This document shows positions 1,004 through 9,988 of a stretch of DNA of 23,848 bases, one piece after another. The stretch is taken from positions 1 to 23,848 of the IMG/VR virus record IMGVR_UViG_3300025927_000027, one strand, 5' to 3'. Source of the stretch: a virus. A program made the translations under genes and the position numbers. Positions within the stretch are counted from its first letter, which is position 1. The number at the start of each line of letters is the position of its first letter. The notes beneath the pieces are model-generated. The model saw nothing but the letters and a program-made list of their open reading frames with translations, was not told where the DNA came from and made no database searches.

Positions 1004-1684
1004 TCATTCGGGGCCGGCGAGGTAGTCCGCCGCCAGGTGCTCCACGAACAAGCCCCACGCGACGTCCTCCGCGATCTCCCCGTCCCGATCCGCCATGTAC
1101 CGGGTGAACGCGTCTGCGAGCACGGCGTGCTGCTCGTCCGTGACGCGCACGTTGATCGTGTGCCACCCGGGATCGGTGACCGCCCCACCGCCACGCCGCT
1201 TCGACTCGACCGGCCCGCCGCGACGCATGTCCACGTGACCCCAGTCCACGTCCGCCATCTTCACCAGGTCCGCCAACTCGTCGCCGGTGTACGGCAGGCC
1301 CTTCAGCAGCGCGTCGGTGCCGATCTCGTCGTCGAGTTGTGCCAGCAGCTGCGCGAGGCCGATCGTGTCCGCCTGCCCCCGCGTCTCGTTCAGGATCACC
1401 GTCAACCGCTTCGCGTCTGCGTCGGACAGGTCGCGCACGATCACCGGCACGTCGGTCGCGCCGGCGGCGAGCGCGGCCTCCCACCGGTGCTCGCCGTCCA
1501 CGATCTCGTACCCGGACCCGTCCGGGTGGGGCCGCACCAGGATCGGGTCGATGAACCCGAACTCGGCGACCGACTCGCCGACCGCCTCGCGCACCCGCGG
1601 CGTCTGCTCGTTCGGGTTCCACGCGTTCGCTCGCAGCGTGTCCGCTGGTACGTGCACGACCTCGATCGGCTTCACTCCGGCCAC
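1004..1684 (-). CDS. ParB/Srx-domain protein with C-terminal RHH-like domain, in the DNA-modification operon
   Basis: The protein has 226 aa from GTG 1684, which has an AGAGG ribosome site 6 nt upstream. A GTG at 1675 that overlaps the dpdA stop as GTGA is an alternative. Residues about 5-100 form a ParB N-terminal domain: an early NAWNPNEQ segment, an EFGFIDPILVRP strand region, and box II as GEHRWEAA (64-71). Residues about 100-165 are a helical linker. Residues 174-226 form a separate module also found alone in the gene at 216-452. ParB-like domains bind CTP or DNA and occur beside phage DNA-modifying enzymes. Here the gene directly follows dpdA, so a role in guiding or licensing base exchange is plausible but unproven. 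A nuclease role cannot be excluded. A much longer upstream extension of this frame overlaps dpdA and was rejected. Confidence 0.85.
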   Translation of the reverse strand: MAGVKPIEVVHVPADTLRANAWNPNEQTPRVREAVGESVAEFGFIDPILVRPHPDGSGYEIVDGEHRWEAALAAGATDVPVIVRDLSDADAKRLTVILNETRGQADTIGLAQLLAQLDDEIGTDALLKGLPYTGDELADLVKMADVDWGHVDMRRGGPVESKRRGGGAVTDPGWHTINVRVTDEQHAVLADAFTRYMADRDGEIAEDVAWGLFVEHLAADYLAGPE

Positions 1685-2514
1685 GTCACACCTCTCTGAG
1701 TCCAGTAGCTCGTTGCGTGCTGCATCAGCCGAGCGTACCCGGCCACGACGCCGCTCATGTGGTGCCGCATCGCGGCTGAGGCTTCGTGCGACTCGTGGTA
1801 GTTCGGCAGGCGGTGGCCCGACCGCAGCTGGCCGCCCCACCGGAACGGCGACAGCCACGAGGACGAGTCCGTCGAGAAGCACGGGTAGCGCAGCACCGCC
1901 CGCTTCGTCGCGATCCCGAGCAGGTGCGTCCGCGGTAGCTCGGGCAGCTTCGCGAGGGTGTCGTACACCTGGTCGAGCCAGTCGAACGCGGCCTGCCCCC
2001 TGCCGACCAGGCCGCCCAGGCACACGTACGGGTAGGCGTCCACCGCGCGCCGCACGTCGTCCATGCCGGCGCCCATCGTCACGACCGGCAGCACCACGCA
2101 GCCGCGGTCGGTGAGCCGGCGGTAGTTCGTCCACGTCGCCGCCTGGTCGCCGATCACGTCCAGCGACACGAACACGCTCTCCGCCACGTCCGGGCACAAC
2201 CGCTCGAAGTCGCGGATGAACTGCGCGTACTTCGCGAGGCTGATGTGCTTGCCCTGCGTGTACGCGGTGAACGCCCCGGAGTCGATCATCACGGTGCACG
2301 GGTGGTGCTTCCAGGCCGGCATCAACTCGCGGCGTTCCTTGGCGTACGCGAACGTGATCAGGTGGTACGGGTAGCGGTTGCGGTTGATCGCCTCGACGCC
2401 GATGCGCATGTCGCGGTCCACGCTGTAGTGCCCGCCGGTGCCGCCGGCCAGGTGCATCCTCACGCCGGCGTCCGCGGCGACCTGTGCGGGGATGCCTGCA
2501 AGGTGCAGCCTCAC
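1672..2514 (-). CDS. dpdA: DpdA-like DNA guanine transglycosylase (7-deazaguanine insertion into DNA)
   Basis: The product is 280 aa. It belongs to the TGT-like phage DpdA group, which swaps guanine in DNA for a 7-deazaguanine base. Visible landmarks on the TIM-barrel framework are MIDSGAFT at 76-83 (equivalent to the substrate-binding D-S/G-G-F region of Tgt), VSLDVIGD at 116-123 (candidate nucleophile Asp119), LPVVTMG at 142-148, CLGGLVGRG at 165-173, and the DpdA-typical YPCFSTDSSSWL at 210-221. The zinc-binding Cys cluster of bacterial Tgt is not apparent. GTG 2514 is chosen because it overlaps the queC stop as GTGA; longer N-termini run into the queC coding region. Adjacency to four preQ0 synthesis genes strongly supports a DNA rather than tRNA substrate. 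I cannot assign the DpdA subfamily without a tree. Confidence 0.88.
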   Translation of the reverse strand: MRLHLAGIPAQVAADAGVRMHLAGGTGGHYSVDRDMRIGVEAINRNRYPYHLITFAYAKERRELMPAWKHHPCTVMIDSGAFTAYTQGKHISLAKYAQFIRDFERLCPDVAESVFVSLDVIGDQAATWTNYRRLTDRGCVVLPVVTMGAGMDDVRRAVDAYPYVCLGGLVGRGQAAFDWLDQVYDTLAKLPELPRTHLLGIATKRAVLRYPCFSTDSSSWLSPFRWGGQLRSGHRLPNYHESHEASAAMRHHMSGVVAGYARLMQHATSYWTQRGVTWPE

Positions 2515-3224
2515 ACCACAGCGCGATCGCCGAACGCCTGCGCCCAGCCCTTCGCACGCTCGCCGCACGCGGGACACTCACCGCACCCGTACCCCCACGG
2601 GTGCAGCACCGAGCGGTTGCCCTGGTAGCACGTGTGCGTCCGGCGGATCACGTCCTGCAGCACCCCGAGCTCGTCGGCGAGCTTCCACGTCTCCGCCTTC
2701 GAGCGGTACAACAGCGGCGCCTCGATGGTGAAGTTCGGCTCGTCCAGCGCGAGGCGGATCGCGGCCTCCGCGGCGTGCGCGAACGTGCCGCGACAGTCCG
2801 GGTAGCCGGCGTCGTCGGCCTGGCAGATACCGGTCACGAGCGTCTTGAAGTCGCGCGGCACGCCGAACGCCGCAGCGGCCGTGAAGAACAACAGGTTCCG
2901 GCCCGGGATGAACGTGGACGGTAGGCCCTTGTCGGCCTGGTAGCCGGTCGTTGCCTGCGCCTCGATCTTGCGGCCACCGTCGGTGAGCGCGCCGCCGTGT
3001 AGCTCGTGCAGGATCGGCAGCCCGAGTGACCAGTGCGGCACGCCCCACGCGTCGGTGATCTCGTCCGCGCAGTGCAGCTCGACCGCGTGCCGCTGGCCGT
3101 AGTCGAAGCTGAGCGCGGCCACCTCGTCGAACCCGATCCGGTTCTCGGTCTGCTCGTGCAGCGCCCACGCGAGGCAGGTGGTGGAGTCCTGCCCGCCGCT
3201 GAACAGGACGAGTGCGCTAGTCAT
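2511..3224 (-). CDS. queC: QueC, 7-cyano-7-deazaguanine (preQ0) synthase
   Basis: The enzyme has 237 aa and converts 7-carboxy-7-deazaguanine to preQ0 with ATP and ammonia. The N-terminal PP-loop is intact: SGGQDS at residues 9-14, after a short hydrophobic strand. A DYGQRH motif follows at about 41-46, and FIPGRNLLF lies mid-protein. The zinc site at the C-terminus is complete, with Cys199 followed by Cys214, Cys217 and Cys220 (CGECPAC). Length is normal for the family (about 220-240 aa). The start, ATG 3224, overlaps the folE TGA by 4 nt, and the stop overlaps the dpdA GTG, so translation is probably coupled on both sides. This is the last base-synthesis step before DpdA. No QueF-like gene is visible to reduce the nitrile. 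Confidence 0.95.
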
Positions 3225-3799
3225 CGGGGTCCCCCTCGGAGTAGGTCGAGCACCTCGGCGCGCGCCGGCGGGTGCTCGCGGAACCGGCCCAGCATCACCG
3301 ATGTGGTGGTGCGCGTGCCGGGTGCCTTCACGCCGCGCATCGTCATGCACATATGCTCGGCTTCGATCACGACTGCCACGCCGCGCGGCTCCACCGGCGA
3401 CTCGGCGAGGGTGGACGCGACCTGCATCGTCAACCGCTCCTGCACCTGCAAGCGGCGCGCGTACCCGTCCACCAGCCGTGCGAGCTTCGACAGGCCGACG
3501 ATCCGTCCGGCGGGCAGGTACGCGACGTGCGCGACGCCCACGAACGGCAGCAGGTGGTGCTCGCACAGGCTGCGGACGGGGATGTCCTTCACGACCACGA
3601 TCTCGTCGTAGCCGTCCGAGTCGAACGTGCGCAGGTGCATCCCGGGGTCTTCGCCCAGCCCGGAGGTCATGTCGAGCAGCGCGTCCGCGAACCGGCGCGG
3701 TGTCTCCTGCAGCCCGTCGCGGTCGGGGTCTTCACCGATCGCCAGCAGCATGTCGCCGACGGTGCGCTGGAGCGAGCGGTACGTGACGTCGCTGTCCAT
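3221..3799 (-). CDS. folE: GTP cyclohydrolase I (FolE)
   Basis: The product is 192 aa, a normal length for FolE, and converts GTP to 7,8-dihydroneopterin triphosphate, the first step of 7-deazaguanine synthesis. The zinc ligands Cys79 and His82 lie in the [10 protein letters not shown] block and Cys151 in EHMCMTMRG. The family segments [10 protein letters not shown] (29-38) and [11 protein letters not shown] (98-108) are present. The start ATG 3799 shares one base with the queE stop (TGATG). A phage copy frees the pathway from host folate-biosynthesis levels. The motifs look catalytically complete. Confidence 0.95.
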
Positions 3800-4548
3800 C
3801 AGACGCCCCGCGCGTGGCCGTACGCGAGCACGTGCAGCTGCGGCAGGACGATCGCTTCGAGCGGTGGCGTCGCGTCGCACACCTGCTGGATCAGCCACGC
3901 GTACCGGTCGCCCACGTCGCGCCGCACCTCTGCCAGGTCACCGCCCGGGGTGGTGCCGACCGACAGGTACAGCGGCCGGCCGGCGTCAGCGAACCCGGAC
4001 AGGTCGTGCATCCGCCGCGCCCACAGGAAGTCCTCGCGGTCGAACACGACCACCTTCATCGCGACCGGCACACCCGAGTCGAGCACGTGCGCCGCGAACG
4101 CCGGCGCCTCCGCCTCGGCCCGCGCGCTCCACCCGCTCGAAGGCGGCTTCGGCGACCACACCACCAGGGACAGGAACTCCATCCACGGCTTCCACGTCGA
4201 ACCCTGCGTCTCGATCGCGCTCTTGTACCCGTTGATCGACAGTTCGTCCACCAGGTGCTCGAGGTCGTACAGCGCGGGGTTGCCGCCGCTCAGCGTCACC
4301 CACGGCGCGCCGGGCGCGCACGCCACCACGCGCTCCACGATCTCCAGGTACGTGAGTCGTTCGGCGGTGCGTGCCCACTGCTCGGGCAGCACCGCGTACG
4401 GCGTGTCGCACCAGCTGCACCGGTAGTCGCAGCCGGCGACGCGCACGAACGCGGTCACGTGGCCGGCGAGGGGCCCTTCGCCCTGCACCACCGGACCGAA
4501 CACCTCGCTGATCGGCACCGTCAGCGTGTCGCGCTGCGTGGCGCTCAC
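3799..4548 (-). CDS. queE: QueE, 7-carboxy-7-deazaguanine synthase (radical SAM)
   Basis: The product is 249 aa. QueE is a radical-SAM enzyme that rearranges 6-carboxytetrahydropterin to 7-carboxy-7-deazaguanine. The [14 protein letters not shown]-terminal signature sits at residues 17-29. The iron-sulfur cluster motif is CDYRCSWC (Cys40, Cys44, Cys47), the usual CxxxCxxC, followed by DTPYA. A GGNP motif ([10 protein letters not shown]) for SAM binding follows. GTG 4548 is preferred over an in-frame ATG further upstream at 4584. It has a GGAGG ribosome site 7 nt away, overlaps the queD stop as GTGA, and gives the family-normal N-terminus. Confidence 0.93.
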
Positions 4549-4940
4549 CTGGACACCTCCGCCCACCCGGTCGCTGTCTCCCACACCCGCACGCTCGTCA
4601 CGTGCACACCCTGCGGCCCGCCCTCGACCAGTTCGGCCTGGAAGAAGTCGTACAGGTAGCCGGCGATGTGCTCGGCGGTGGTCGGGTGGTACTGGGGCGG
4701 TAGCTGCTCGTTCAGGTTCCGGTGGTCAAGCTGATCCTCGATCTGCTTCCACGCGGCGGACACGGTGCCGAAGTCCATCAGCATCCCCTCGTCGCTCGCG
4801 CCGGCCGTGTCCACCAGGCCGTACCCGGCCAGCACGACCTCCACCTGGTAGGAGTGGCCGTGCGGACGCGAACACTTCCCGTCGTGGTTCGGCAGCACGT
4901 GCGCGGCCTCGAACCGGAACGTCTTGCCGATGCGGATCAC
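4545..4940 (-). CDS. queD: QueD, 6-carboxy-5,6,7,8-tetrahydropterin synthase
   Basis: The protein has 131 aa and converts dihydroneopterin triphosphate to 6-carboxytetrahydropterin. The zinc ligands are His14, His27 and His29 (FEAAH, then PHGHSY). The catalytic Cys23 is in GKCSRPHGH, and the Asp72-His73 pair is in QLDHRNLN. MDFG at 55-58, PTTAE at 86-90 and Glu121 in VWET complete the family signature. The start is GTG 4940, overlapping the stop of the XRE-type gene as GTGA. Every catalytic residue I can check is present, so the enzyme should be active. Confidence 0.94.
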   Translation of the reverse strand: MIRIGKTFRFEAAHVLPNHDGKCSRPHGHSYQVEVVLAGYGLVDTAGASDEGMLMDFGTVSAAWKQIEDQLDHRNLNEQLPPQYHPTTAEHIAGYLYDFFQAELVEGGPQGVHVTSVRVWETATGWAEVSR

Positions 4941-5272
4941 GCCGGCACCCTACCGCTCGCAGCGTTCACCAGCAGGTCGAACGGGACGCCCACCAGGCCG
5001 CTCACCGCCTTGGCGTGGCTGGCAGTGATGCGAGCGTCGCCGCTCTCCATCCGCGCCACCTGGGGACGCGACAGGCCGGCACGCTCCGCCAGCTGCTCCT
5101 GCGTCAACCCGGCGGCGGTGCGGCCGATCGTGAGGAACAACGGCCCGAGGTCGGGCAGTGGCACGACGCGCAGCAGGGCGGCTCCCACGTACGCGGCCTG
5201 CGCCGCGTCGTCCGGGTCCACCCACACGGTAGGTTCGCCGGCGTCGCGCCGGCGCACACGACTCGCTCTCAT
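4937..5272 (-). CDS. XRE-family helix-turn-helix regulator, first gene of the preQ0/DpdA operon
   Basis: The frame encodes 111 aa from ATG 5272. The C-terminal half is a Cro/CI-type HTH: LTQEQLAERAGLSRPQVAR at about residues 56-74, then a MESGDARI turn. The N-terminal 40 residues include a WVDPDDAAQAAYV segment and are not a known domain to me. The short N-terminal extension further upstream lacks support. A TACACT box 8 nt before the ATG suggests a leaderless or nearly leaderless message. An inverted repeat, GGGTC-5 nt-GACCC, lies where the -35 would be. Being first in a tightly overlapping operon, it probably autoregulates the modification genes. It could instead be a small DNA-binding accessory protein. 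Confidence 0.85.
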   Translation of the reverse strand: MRASRVRRRDAGEPTVWVDPDDAAQAAYVGAALLRVVPLPDLGPLFLTIGRTAAGLTQEQLAERAGLSRPQVARMESGDARITASHAKAVSGLVGVPFDLLVNAASGRVPA

Positions 5273-5356: not shown

Positions 5357-5384
5357 AGACGGGCGACCCGTAGGCCGCCCGTCT
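5357..5384 (-). terminator. Hairpin terminator after the 253-aa protein gene
   Basis: On the minus strand a 12-bp stem (AGACGGGCGGCC with its partner, one G-T wobble) closes on a TACG tetraloop flanked by C and G, an especially stable loop type. It lies 22 nt after the stop codon at 5407. The following T-run is weak (TCTTGC), which is common for terminators in high-GC actinobacterial systems. Confidence 0.7.
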
Positions 5385-5406: not shown

Positions 5407-6168
5407 CTAGGCGGTCGCGCGCGCCAGGGCGCGGGCGAGGGTGGTGAGCTTCGCGCCGAACTTCGCCTCGACGGCCTGCAGTTCGGTGACCTGCTCGGGG
5501 GTGAGCGTCAGCCCGCCGGTGCCGGCCTCGCGCTGCGTCTGCAGTTCCGGGGCGTGGCGGCGGAGCACACCGCTGACGACCTGCTGGCTGGTGTAGCCCA
5601 GCTCGGCCGCGATCTCGCTCAGCTTCTTGCCGGCCTTGCGCATCTCGATCACCTTCGCGACGCGCTCCGCGTCGGCGGTCTTCTTCGCCTCGCGGGCCGC
5701 GATCTGCTCGGCGCTCGGGCCGCGCTTCGGCTTCGCGGGGGCGGCGTCCTGCTCGGCCTTGACCTCGGCGGCGCGCTCGGCGACGGCCTCGGCCTCGGAC
5801 TTCGTGCGGTTCGCAGCGGCGGCCTCGCGCCGGTTGCGGTACTCCTGCAGGCCCTTCGACAGGGCGGCGTCCGTCACGGCCGGCGCGTCAGCGGCGGCGG
5901 TGCGCCGGCGACGGGCGGGCGGCTTCGGAGCGTCGGTCTTCGTGCTGGCCATGGTGTCCTCCTGGGACTCGTGGGTGATGGGGCGAACGCGGGTGCGGCT
6001 GGTGCCGGTGGCGCCGCTGTCGAACTCGACGCGGTTGAAGATCGCGAAGCCGTCGGCGCCGTCGTCGTTGACGATCGTGCCGGCGCCGTACTGGCCGTGC
6101 GTGACGCGCGTGCCGACCAGGAAGTTCTTGGCGGTGCGGGGGGCGGTGGTGTCCTGCGTGGTTCCCAT
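5407..6168 (-). CDS. SH3-like plus HTH DNA-associated protein with internal start
   Basis: The frame encodes 253 aa from ATG 6168, six bases after a -10 box, so the mRNA looks leaderless. Residues about 17-62 (VGTRVTHGQYGAGTIV onward) resemble the small SH3/Tudor-like fold seen at the ends of CarD- and UvrD-type proteins. Residues 78-170 are Ala/Lys/Arg/Glu-rich and probably helical and DNA- or RNA-binding. Residues about 170-207 contain an HTH-like segment (KKLSEIAAELGYTSQQVV). Met73 (ATG 5952) has a perfect AGGAGG 5 nt upstream inside the coding sequence, so a 181-aa shorter form is likely. A chromatin-like or transcription-regulating role is inferred. It forms its own unit between promoter and terminator. 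Confidence 0.82.
   Translation of the reverse strand: MGTTQDTTAPRTAKNFLVGTRVTHGQYGAGTIVNDDGADGFAIFNRVEFDSGATGTSRTRVRPITHESQEDTMASTKTDAPKPPARRRRTAAADAPAVTDAALSKGLQEYRNRREAAAANRTKSEAEAVAERAAEVKAEQDAAPAKPKRGPSAEQIAAREAKKTADAERVAKVIEMRKAGKKLSEIAAELGYTSQQVVSGVLRRHAPELQTQREAGTGGLTLTPEQVTELQAVEAKFGAKLTTLARALARATA
5952..5963 (-). promoter_or_regulatory. Internal ribosome binding site (AGGAGG) for a shorter product
   Basis: The minus strand reads AGGAGGACACCATG within the 253-aa reading frame. It is a perfect Shine-Dalgarno at 5 nt spacing before Met73. The long form is apparently leaderless, so this internal site may be the better-translated start. Confidence 0.6.
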
Positions 6169-8947: not shown

Positions 8948-9916
8948 CTACTCGGCCAGGCTGGCTGCAAGCTCCAGCGCGTGCTTCGCGAGCGGCTGGT
9001 GGCCGTCCACCATGAACCGGTGGAACGTCTGCTCGTCGGTGCGGTTGTAGCCGTAGTGCTGCTCCCACTCCGCCGCCGCGTGCACCAGCCCCAGGTACGT
9101 ACCGCGCAGGTCTTCCAGGTTCGGCGACTTGCGGTACACCGTCGCGAGGTTCATGCGCTTCACGTCGATGTTCTTCCGGGTCACGTCCGACACCTCGGCC
9201 TCGGGCGTGTACGGCACCAGCCGCCGCCAGAACCGCGTCGCGCCGCCGGCGGTCACCCGGCGCGCCGCCAGGCGCTCCGAGATCGCGGCCAGGTGCTTCT
9301 CGTAGTCGTACGCCAGCCCGAGCGCGGCCTTCGCCTCGAACAGCCGCTCACGAGCGTTCTTCGTGTGCCGGATGGTGTAGCTCCGAGGCGCGCCCTCGAT
9401 CGCCCACGACAGGGTGTTCCAGCAGACGACGCGGGTCATCGTGGTGCACGCCCGCATCCCCATCGAGCCGTCGAACGAGTTCACGACCAGCAGGTGCTTC
9501 ACGTACTGCTCGCCGGCGATCGTGTCGGTCGGGATCTCCAGCAGCCCCCACGCGAGGGCGCCGTCCTTCAGGGTGCCGGCGGTCTTCCAGCGCCCGCCGG
9601 CCTCGACGATGTCCTCGCCGAACTGGAACAGCTCCGAGTTCTGGATCAGCTCGTAGGTGGAGCGGACGACGCCGAGCGGCTTCCCGTCGATCTGCCGCAC
9701 GTTCATCGTCCACGCGGCCATGTCGGCGATGTGCATCTCGCCGGCATCGTCGAACCACGAGCCGAACAGGCTGTTGGACTGGACGACCGGGCTGGCGAGC
9801 AGCGGGAGGTGCGCGAACACCTCGTCCATCGTCAGGTGCGTCTCGGGCACCACGGTGCCGAGGCCGTGCCACGCGGGCACGTTGTCGGTGAAGACGCCGG
9901 ACTCGAACAGGTGCAT
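8948..9916 (-). CDS. DUF932 family phage protein
   Basis: The protein has 322 aa from ATG 9916, with AGGAGG 6 nt upstream. The N-terminal PAWHGLGTVV block (residues 14-23) is the hallmark of the DUF932 / phage-plasmid TIGR03299 family. Family features follow: YELIQNSELF, then the long central segment with VVNSFDGSMGMRACTTMTRVVCWNTL and the late HTKNARERLFEA helix. The function of DUF932 is not established; members are widespread in phages and plasmids near replication genes. Here it is a single-gene unit with its own promoter and terminator. An upstream GTG at 9961 overlaps the -10 box and is rejected. Confidence 0.9.
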   Translation of the reverse strand: MHLFESGVFTDNVPAWHGLGTVVPETHLTMDEVFAHLPLLASPVVQSNSLFGSWFDDAGEMHIADMAAWTMNVRQIDGKPLGVVRSTYELIQNSELFQFGEDIVEAGGRWKTAGTLKDGALAWGLLEIPTDTIAGEQYVKHLLVVNSFDGSMGMRACTTMTRVVCWNTLSWAIEGAPRSYTIRHTKNARERLFEAKAALGLAYDYEKHLAAISERLAARRVTAGGATRFWRRLVPYTPEAEVSDVTRKNIDVKRMNLATVYRKSPNLEDLRGTYLGLVHAAAEWEQHYGYNRTDEQTFHRFMVDGHQPLAKHALELAASLAE

Positions 9917-9934
9917 GTCGTACCTCCTGGTCAC

Positions 9935-9949
9935 GGGGAGCGCGTCCCC
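9935..9949 (-). promoter_or_regulatory. 5' leader hairpin of the DUF932 mRNA
   Basis: GGGGA and TCCCC form a 5-bp stem around 5 nt. It lies between the predicted transcription start (about 9953) and the GACCAGGAGG ribosome site. It matches the architecture of the leader at 8703-8723. Confidence 0.42.
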
Positions 9950-9959
9950 TAGTACCCCC

Positions 9960-9988
9960 ACGGTACGCCACCCCGGCGCGGTTGTCTC
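9960..9988 (-). promoter_or_regulatory. Promoter (GAGACA / 17 bp / TACCGT), leadered type
   Basis: On the minus strand GAGACA (9988-9983) and TACCGT (9965-9960) are 17 bp apart. The -35 block shares 17 identical bases with the promoter at 8730-8758. It drives the DUF932 gene through a short leader with a hairpin. Confidence 0.68.

Follow-up and report, generated by a model that had tools for sequence, protein, structure and literature searches.

Mycobacteriophage Rosebush encodes the five enzymes FolE, QueD, QueE, QueC and DpdA, and about 28% of its Gs are replaced by 2'-deoxy-7-cyano-7-deazaguanosine (dPreQ0) (Hutinet 2019, PMC6884629). Phage CAjan, which belongs with Rosebush to group 2 of that survey, has these five enzymes too; there dPreQ0 accounts for about 32% of Gs, deletion of dpdA abolishes both modification and protection, and the related derivatives dG+, dPreQ1 and dADG are made by other phages (PMC6884629). 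In bacterial Dpd systems, the insertion of preQ0 has been described as requiring DpdB, a ParB-like ATPase that some clusters can do without (PMC12839542), and in 2019 the ParB protein of phage CRB2 was proposed to be a DpdB homologue (PMC6392294). Here we analyze IMG/VR virus record IMGVR_UViG_3300025927_000027, a fragment of an uncultured phage with a G+C content of 71% whose complete 23,848 bases are referred to below as the window, and in which genes of the preQ0 pathway are joined to genes for DpdA and a ParB-fold protein.

We regard this locus with considerable confidence as a Rosebush-type DNA-hypermodification operon, in which preQ0 is made and then inserted by DpdA, and the ParB-fold protein most likely acts as a DpdB-like partner. 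As extrapolated from characterized relatives, FolE, QueD, QueE and QueC would make preQ0 from GTP, DpdA would swap a fraction of the phage-DNA guanines for preQ0, yielding dPreQ0, and the modified base would protect the phage DNA against host restriction enzymes. The ParB-fold protein, binding a nucleoside triphosphate (NTP), would load, activate or aim DpdA on double-stranded DNA in the manner of bacterial DpdB.

Gene content of the operon

A base-by-base check places the XRE, QueD, QueE, FolE, QueC, DpdA and ParB genes in this order on the minus strand, from position 5272 to 1004, with successive overlaps of 4, 4, 4, 4, 4 and 13 nucleotides (nt). FolE, QueD, QueE and QueC all score above the curated NCBIfam equivalog cut-offs, and the full preQ0 gene set is therefore encoded. 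The motifs CX3CX2C (CDYRCSWC) in QueE, CX3HGH in QueD, CEHH...C in FolE, and SGGQDS with four cysteines in QueC were all read in the sequence. These coordinates and scores bear out a preliminary description of a seven-gene operon in the window with a complete preQ0 pathway and DpdA; its overlapping order also stands, and its overlap range of 1-13 nt is replaced by five overlaps of 4 nt and one of 13 nt.

Association of ParB with DpdA

The survey covered 80 viral-contig loci found by DpdA alignment together with phage references, using iterated profiles for six genes; with PF02195 alone and a limit of E <= 0.001, ParB is recognized in only 18 of these 80, and the other ParB calls come from the iterated profile. 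By open frame, ParB overlaps DpdA or lies <=125 bases from it, with one exception at 2.1 kb. Among the six modelled genes, the two were neighbors in all 38 ParB-positive phage loci, the one with the 2.1 kb gap included, unlike QueC, QueD and FolE, which change neighbors across loci. The pairing also persists in L053, L073 and L084, loci that lack most or all of the Que genes, and ParB lies immediately by DpdA in 13 loci from bacterial genomes, where the ParB-positive cases are mostly actinobacterial (one of them, L102, appears to duplicate L045).

With the ParB state mapped on a DpdA tree of 88 rows, 3 changes are required; shuffled labels give 28.4 (0 of 500 shuffles were as low), and the number drops to 2 if the 2.1 kb case is scored as ParB-positive. 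ParB is absent from one branch, that of 9g, CAjan and their relatives; a tree in which all ParB-less DpdAs form one clade is not rejected, has a slightly better fit than the free tree, and would accommodate a gain as well as a loss of ParB. The distances between ParB proteins correlate with those between DpdA proteins even after QueD, QueE and FolE are removed (0.48; 0 of 1000 permutations), and DpdA shows little residual correlation with QueD, QueE and FolE. Taken over more than a hundred relatives, the comparison suggests that the ParB-like gene is a partner restricted to one DpdA branch. Its adjacency to DpdA in rearranged operons, its absence from the 9g/CAjan branch and the covariation of distances together indicate that ParB, rather than being a partition protein, probably works with DpdA as a partner that binds an NTP.

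Two variations on this arrangement were seen. Pairs of ParB and DpdA with few or no nearby preQ0 genes occur in Enterococcus (L123) and Peptostreptococcus (L136), as well as in the loci L053, L073 and L084. In four Streptomyces contigs (L107, L112, L113 and L114), three separate ParB-like genes precede DpdA, and QueD, QueE and FolE are present, with QueC not detected; these contigs could be prophages or islands, and the host may supply QueC.

Features of the ParB-fold protein

The ParB gene of the window is separate from that of DpdA, with its own GTG start in another frame. It had been described as a fused module, and a ParB-DpdA fusion is rejected by the differing frames and the 13-nt overlap; the ParB frame stays open upstream to position 2581 beneath DpdA, which could mimic a fusion. 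The best PDB sequence match is Spo0J (1vz0, 6.3e-15), and the N-terminal portion of the predicted model, about 139 residues, has the ParB/Srx NTPase fold and resembles ParB and Noc with CTP or CDP bound. Box II (the P-motif) reads GEHR in the window, with R67 as its arginine, which is kept in 17 of 23 DpdA-linked ParBs and which other ParB-fold members require to bind NTP (PMC12704722). The protein thus carries the nucleotide-pocket motifs of the ParB-CTPase fold, and NTP binding is predicted from it.

Alternatively, dPreQ0 DNA might be made while ParB is simply co-transcribed and does unrelated work, for instance in plasmid-like partition, as a nuclease or in regulation. Its N-terminal fold is that of partition ParB and Noc, and many phages have an annotated ParB with no link to DpdA. 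However, the pairing with DpdA survives rearrangement of the operon, and ParB tracks the DpdA tree. In addition, neither of two hallmarks of a ParABS system was found: ParA (PF13614, PF01656) was not detected in the window or in its 22 kb relative G001, both of which are fragments, and no helix-turn-helix (HTH) was matched in the C-terminal part of the window ParB by Pfam, PDB sequence or model searches, in which only the N-terminal domain gave matches. We therefore consider a separate job unlikely, though it is the strongest of the alternatives.

DpdA and the expected product

Because QueC lacks an amidotransferase domain and no QueF scores above cut-off in the window or G001, dPreQ0 is the likeliest product; the sole match in the QueF search was FolE itself, below the cut-off. 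The previous proposal of 7-deazaguanine DNA is supported by the pathway together with DpdA, as judged from the encoded proteins. Insertion of another 7-deazaguanine, for example after conversion by the host or by a gene that the recovered contigs do not cover, gains some room from the fact that only 23.8 kb of the phage and a fragment of its nearest relative are available, and other phages do make such derivatives, but the contrast with the amidotransferase-bearing Gat-QueC of 9g and the outcome of the QueF search leave it rather improbable.

DpdA itself gave no match in Pfam (including PF01702, TGT) or NCBIfam and no PADLOC assignment, with the PF01702 search being positive in 14 of 14 control genomes. 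It does match PHROG 887 (queuine tRNA-ribosyltransferase), and a tblastn search matched 216 phage records, many of which carry a DpdA or queuine transferase annotation; its identity to the DpdA of phage 9g is 32% over 176 amino acids (aa). A profile of 42 DpdAs found a single significant PDB entry, the bacterial DNA-guanine transglycosylase 7ui4 (8.8e-5), and did not match tRNA Tgt. The predicted model (mean predicted local distance difference test score, pLDDT, of 75, with the core above 90) matches the folds of Tgt and 7ui4, and the CxCxxC zinc motif is not present. In the DpdA tree, the window protein falls among known phage DpdAs, and on these searches and the tree together it belongs with phage DpdA and the bacterial DNA-guanine transglycosylase, apart from tRNA Tgt, which was the placement asked about at the outset.

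All 42 aligned DpdAs share the residues D78, D119, H197 and D216. H197 aligns with His196 of 9g, and DpdA2 has been reported to be without a histidine at that position of 9g (PMC6884629); on this alignment, the window DpdA is classed as 9g-type and not as DpdA2.

Two DpdA genes a short distance apart, in some cases separated by ParB, occur in three viral contigs (L014, L020 and L085) and five actinobacterial genomes (L099, L107, L108, L113 and L118). Most copies retain DSGA, LDVI, HGFG and SVDSS, while the usual final motif is missing from L085:7348-8235 and reads SIDTTTW in L020:5045-5962. The paired genes possibly represent two specificities.

Weighing of the evidence

Several observations count against a ParB-assisted DNA transglycosylase of this kind. 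The ParB of the window did not match the DpdB model NF041060 at E <= 10, and can thus be no more than an analogue or a distant relative of DpdB. ParB and QueE also show a residual distance correlation of 0.48 beyond the other genes, and hence co-inheritance of the operon accounts for part of the ParB-DpdA signal; the rows of the DpdA tree are unevenly related, with several long branches. Without ParB, 9g DpdA inserts preQ0 into E. coli plasmid DNA, at a low level (PMC6884629), so that ParB is no general chemical requirement, and we read its role as aiding loading or targeting in one DpdA branch. Finally, the C-terminal part of the DpdA model has low confidence, and at a position occupied by histidine in 41 of the 42 aligned DpdAs, the window protein alone has threonine (Thr146); judging from the order of the strand-end motifs, this may correspond to a base-recognition position of Tgt. 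The chemistry of this DpdA is therefore not to be assumed, and the earlier statement that the catalytic motifs are intact, although it holds for QueE, QueD, FolE, QueC and the four invariant DpdA residues, was slightly too strong. Thr146 could be taken to mean that DpdA is degenerate or acts on tRNA, with the preQ0 pathway feeding tRNA queuosine, but the lack of a PF01702 match and of the zinc motif, the profile match to 7ui4 with no tRNA Tgt, and the conservation of D78, D119, H197 and D216 make this very improbable.

A ParB-assisted DpdA in the window would be compatible with a more tentative proposal, to which we give slightly less than an even chance, that phage DpdAs fall into two mechanistic classes. 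One would be independent of ParB and often encoded near the replication polymerase, as in 9g and CAjan, and the other, as in the window, would use a dedicated ParB-fold NTPase that controls the site or efficiency of guanine exchange in double-stranded DNA. Such an NTPase would be the phage equivalent of DpdB, although its sequence does not allow it to be assigned as such. Within the open-licence literature, neither the 2019 phage survey (PMC6884629), in which ParB and DpdB are unmentioned, nor the 2025 survey of ParB-fold proteins (PMC12704722), in which queuosine, deazaguanine and transglycosylase are unmentioned, makes a split between ParB-positive and ParB-negative systems. The operon would add an uncultured phage to those that use a known anti-restriction strategy, and the branch-limited NTPase makes it testable how a transglycosylase related to a tRNA enzyme reaches a base within double-stranded DNA. 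A wider question is whether enzymes that modify phage DNA are in general aimed or loaded by NTPases of the ParB type; the fusion of ParB to phage methyltransferases (PMC12704722) and the presence of ParB genes next to CmoX (PMC12783734) suggest as much.

Operon control and genomic surroundings

The features of the operon are collected in Table 1.

Table 1. Genes and putative control element of the 7-deazaguanine operon in the window
Feature	Position	Strand	Basis
XRE/HTH_3 protein, putative regulator, first operon gene, 111 aa	4937..5272	-	ATG start; PF01381 (HTH_3) 3.9e-12; 4-nt overlap with QueD
QueD, 6-carboxytetrahydropterin synthase	4545..4940	-	GTG start; TIGR03367 94.5 bits (cut-off 89); PF01242 5.5e-34
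QueE, 7-carboxy-7-deazaguanine synthase (radical SAM)	3799..4548	-	GTG start in the 4-nt QueD overlap; TIGR03365 208.9 bits (cut-off 206); CX3CX2C
FolE, GTP cyclohydrolase I	3221..3802	-	ATG start; TIGR00063 214 bits (cut-off 182)
QueC, preQ0 synthase, 237 aa, without amidotransferase domain	2511..3224	-	ATG start; TIGR00364 198 bits (cut-off 150)
DpdA, DNA-guanine transglycosylase, 280 aa	1672..2514	-	GTG start; PHROG 887 1.7e-29; identity to 9g DpdA; 7ui4 profile and fold match
ParB-fold protein, 226 aa, proposed DpdA partner	1004..1684	-	GTG start; PF02195 3.9e-16; TIGR00180 66 (cut-off 58)
GC-rich hairpin, likely terminator isolating the operon	5357..5384	-	12-nt inverted repeat, 92% complementary; fold z-score -3.64 vs shuffles

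The hairpin sits between the upstream gene, which ends at 5407, and XRE, and as a terminator it likely separates the operon from that gene; the terminator scan missed it, probably because its tail has few Ts. A sigma-70 scan of the window found no promoter, and TACACT at 5286-5281, a few bases ahead of the XRE start, could be the -10 element of a leaderless promoter. The XRE protein had been called a dedicated regulator. Among the ParB-positive records searched, XRE stands at the head of the operon in the window only (G001 breaks at QueD); it adjoins the operon in 0 of the 23 others, whose HTH_3 matches are distant or absent, and the position of the gene is therefore what points to control of the operon, making XRE a candidate regulator.

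No near match to the window was found by a DNA-level similarity search of about 50,000 phage records. A scan with DpdA as the single protein yielded one close relative among viral contigs, G001 (L096; 22,073 bases), and none among genome contigs. G001 is 97-98% identical to the window across 5 kb, spanning QueD to ParB and further; the contig ends at QueD, so that the region upstream lies outside it. Directly after ParB, in the gap preceding the next gene, this 97% identical relative has 374 additional bases (L096:4008-4382), and farther downstream are large open reading frames without a PHROG or Pfam match, among them L096:6576-9947 (1123 aa) and L096:11106-14792 (1228 aa). Other proteins of the window include a replication-initiation-like and an Erf-like annealing protein, which fit a phage origin, and a DUF932 protein (8948-9961; 1.3e-40) shares a strand block with the replication genes.

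Comparison with known systems

The gene set with ParB had been thought to set this phage apart. However, a ParB-like gene lies by DpdA and preQ0-pathway genes in LizLemon, Saguaro, CRB2, Gordonia phage Sour, Bipper, Typha, Knocker and Arthrobacter phage Mufasa8, although QueC is not in every one, and a small gene separates ParB from DpdA in Knocker, Bipper and Typha. As the same cluster is found in known actinophages (cluster-B mycobacteriophages, Sour and Mufasa8), and a DpdB-like role had been suggested in 2019 (PMC6392294), the operon is not new in kind.

LizLemon (cluster B2, Rosebush species) resembles the window in having a ParB-like gene, unnamed in its record, with DpdA, QueC, QueD, QueE and FolE in one overlapping cluster. 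It differs in that ParB and DpdA come first and FolE last, the cluster adjoins the terminase and has no XRE at its head, the DpdAs are about 30% identical, and the ParB motif is GNHT where the window has GEHR. In Mufasa8 and its relatives (L013, L018, L030 and L036), DpdA is followed by an overlapping ParB as in the window, the DpdAs group with that of the window in the tree, and the ParB is the closest to that of the window (46% over 142 aa), but the Que genes lie downstream of ParB. Besides this ParB, the four relatives encode a further protein of 390 aa, which has two ParB domains, directly upstream of DpdA (L013:4811-5983, L018:1398-2570, L030:4814-5983 and L036:4816-5988).

The Escherichia phages CAjan and 9g (Queuovirinae) share with the window the preQ0 pathway and a DpdA with the HGFG-type histidine, and CAjan has dPreQ0; they differ in having no ParB and in that DpdA is followed by DNA polymerase genes, and 9g has Gat-QueC and makes dG+. 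For the bacterial Dpd islands, the models NF041059 (DpdA) and NF041060 (DpdB) have no match in the window, in which one ParB-fold protein was identified, but in both systems a DNA transglycosylase of the TGT fold is accompanied by an NTPase of the ParB superfamily, which in bacteria is described as driving insertion (PMC12839542).

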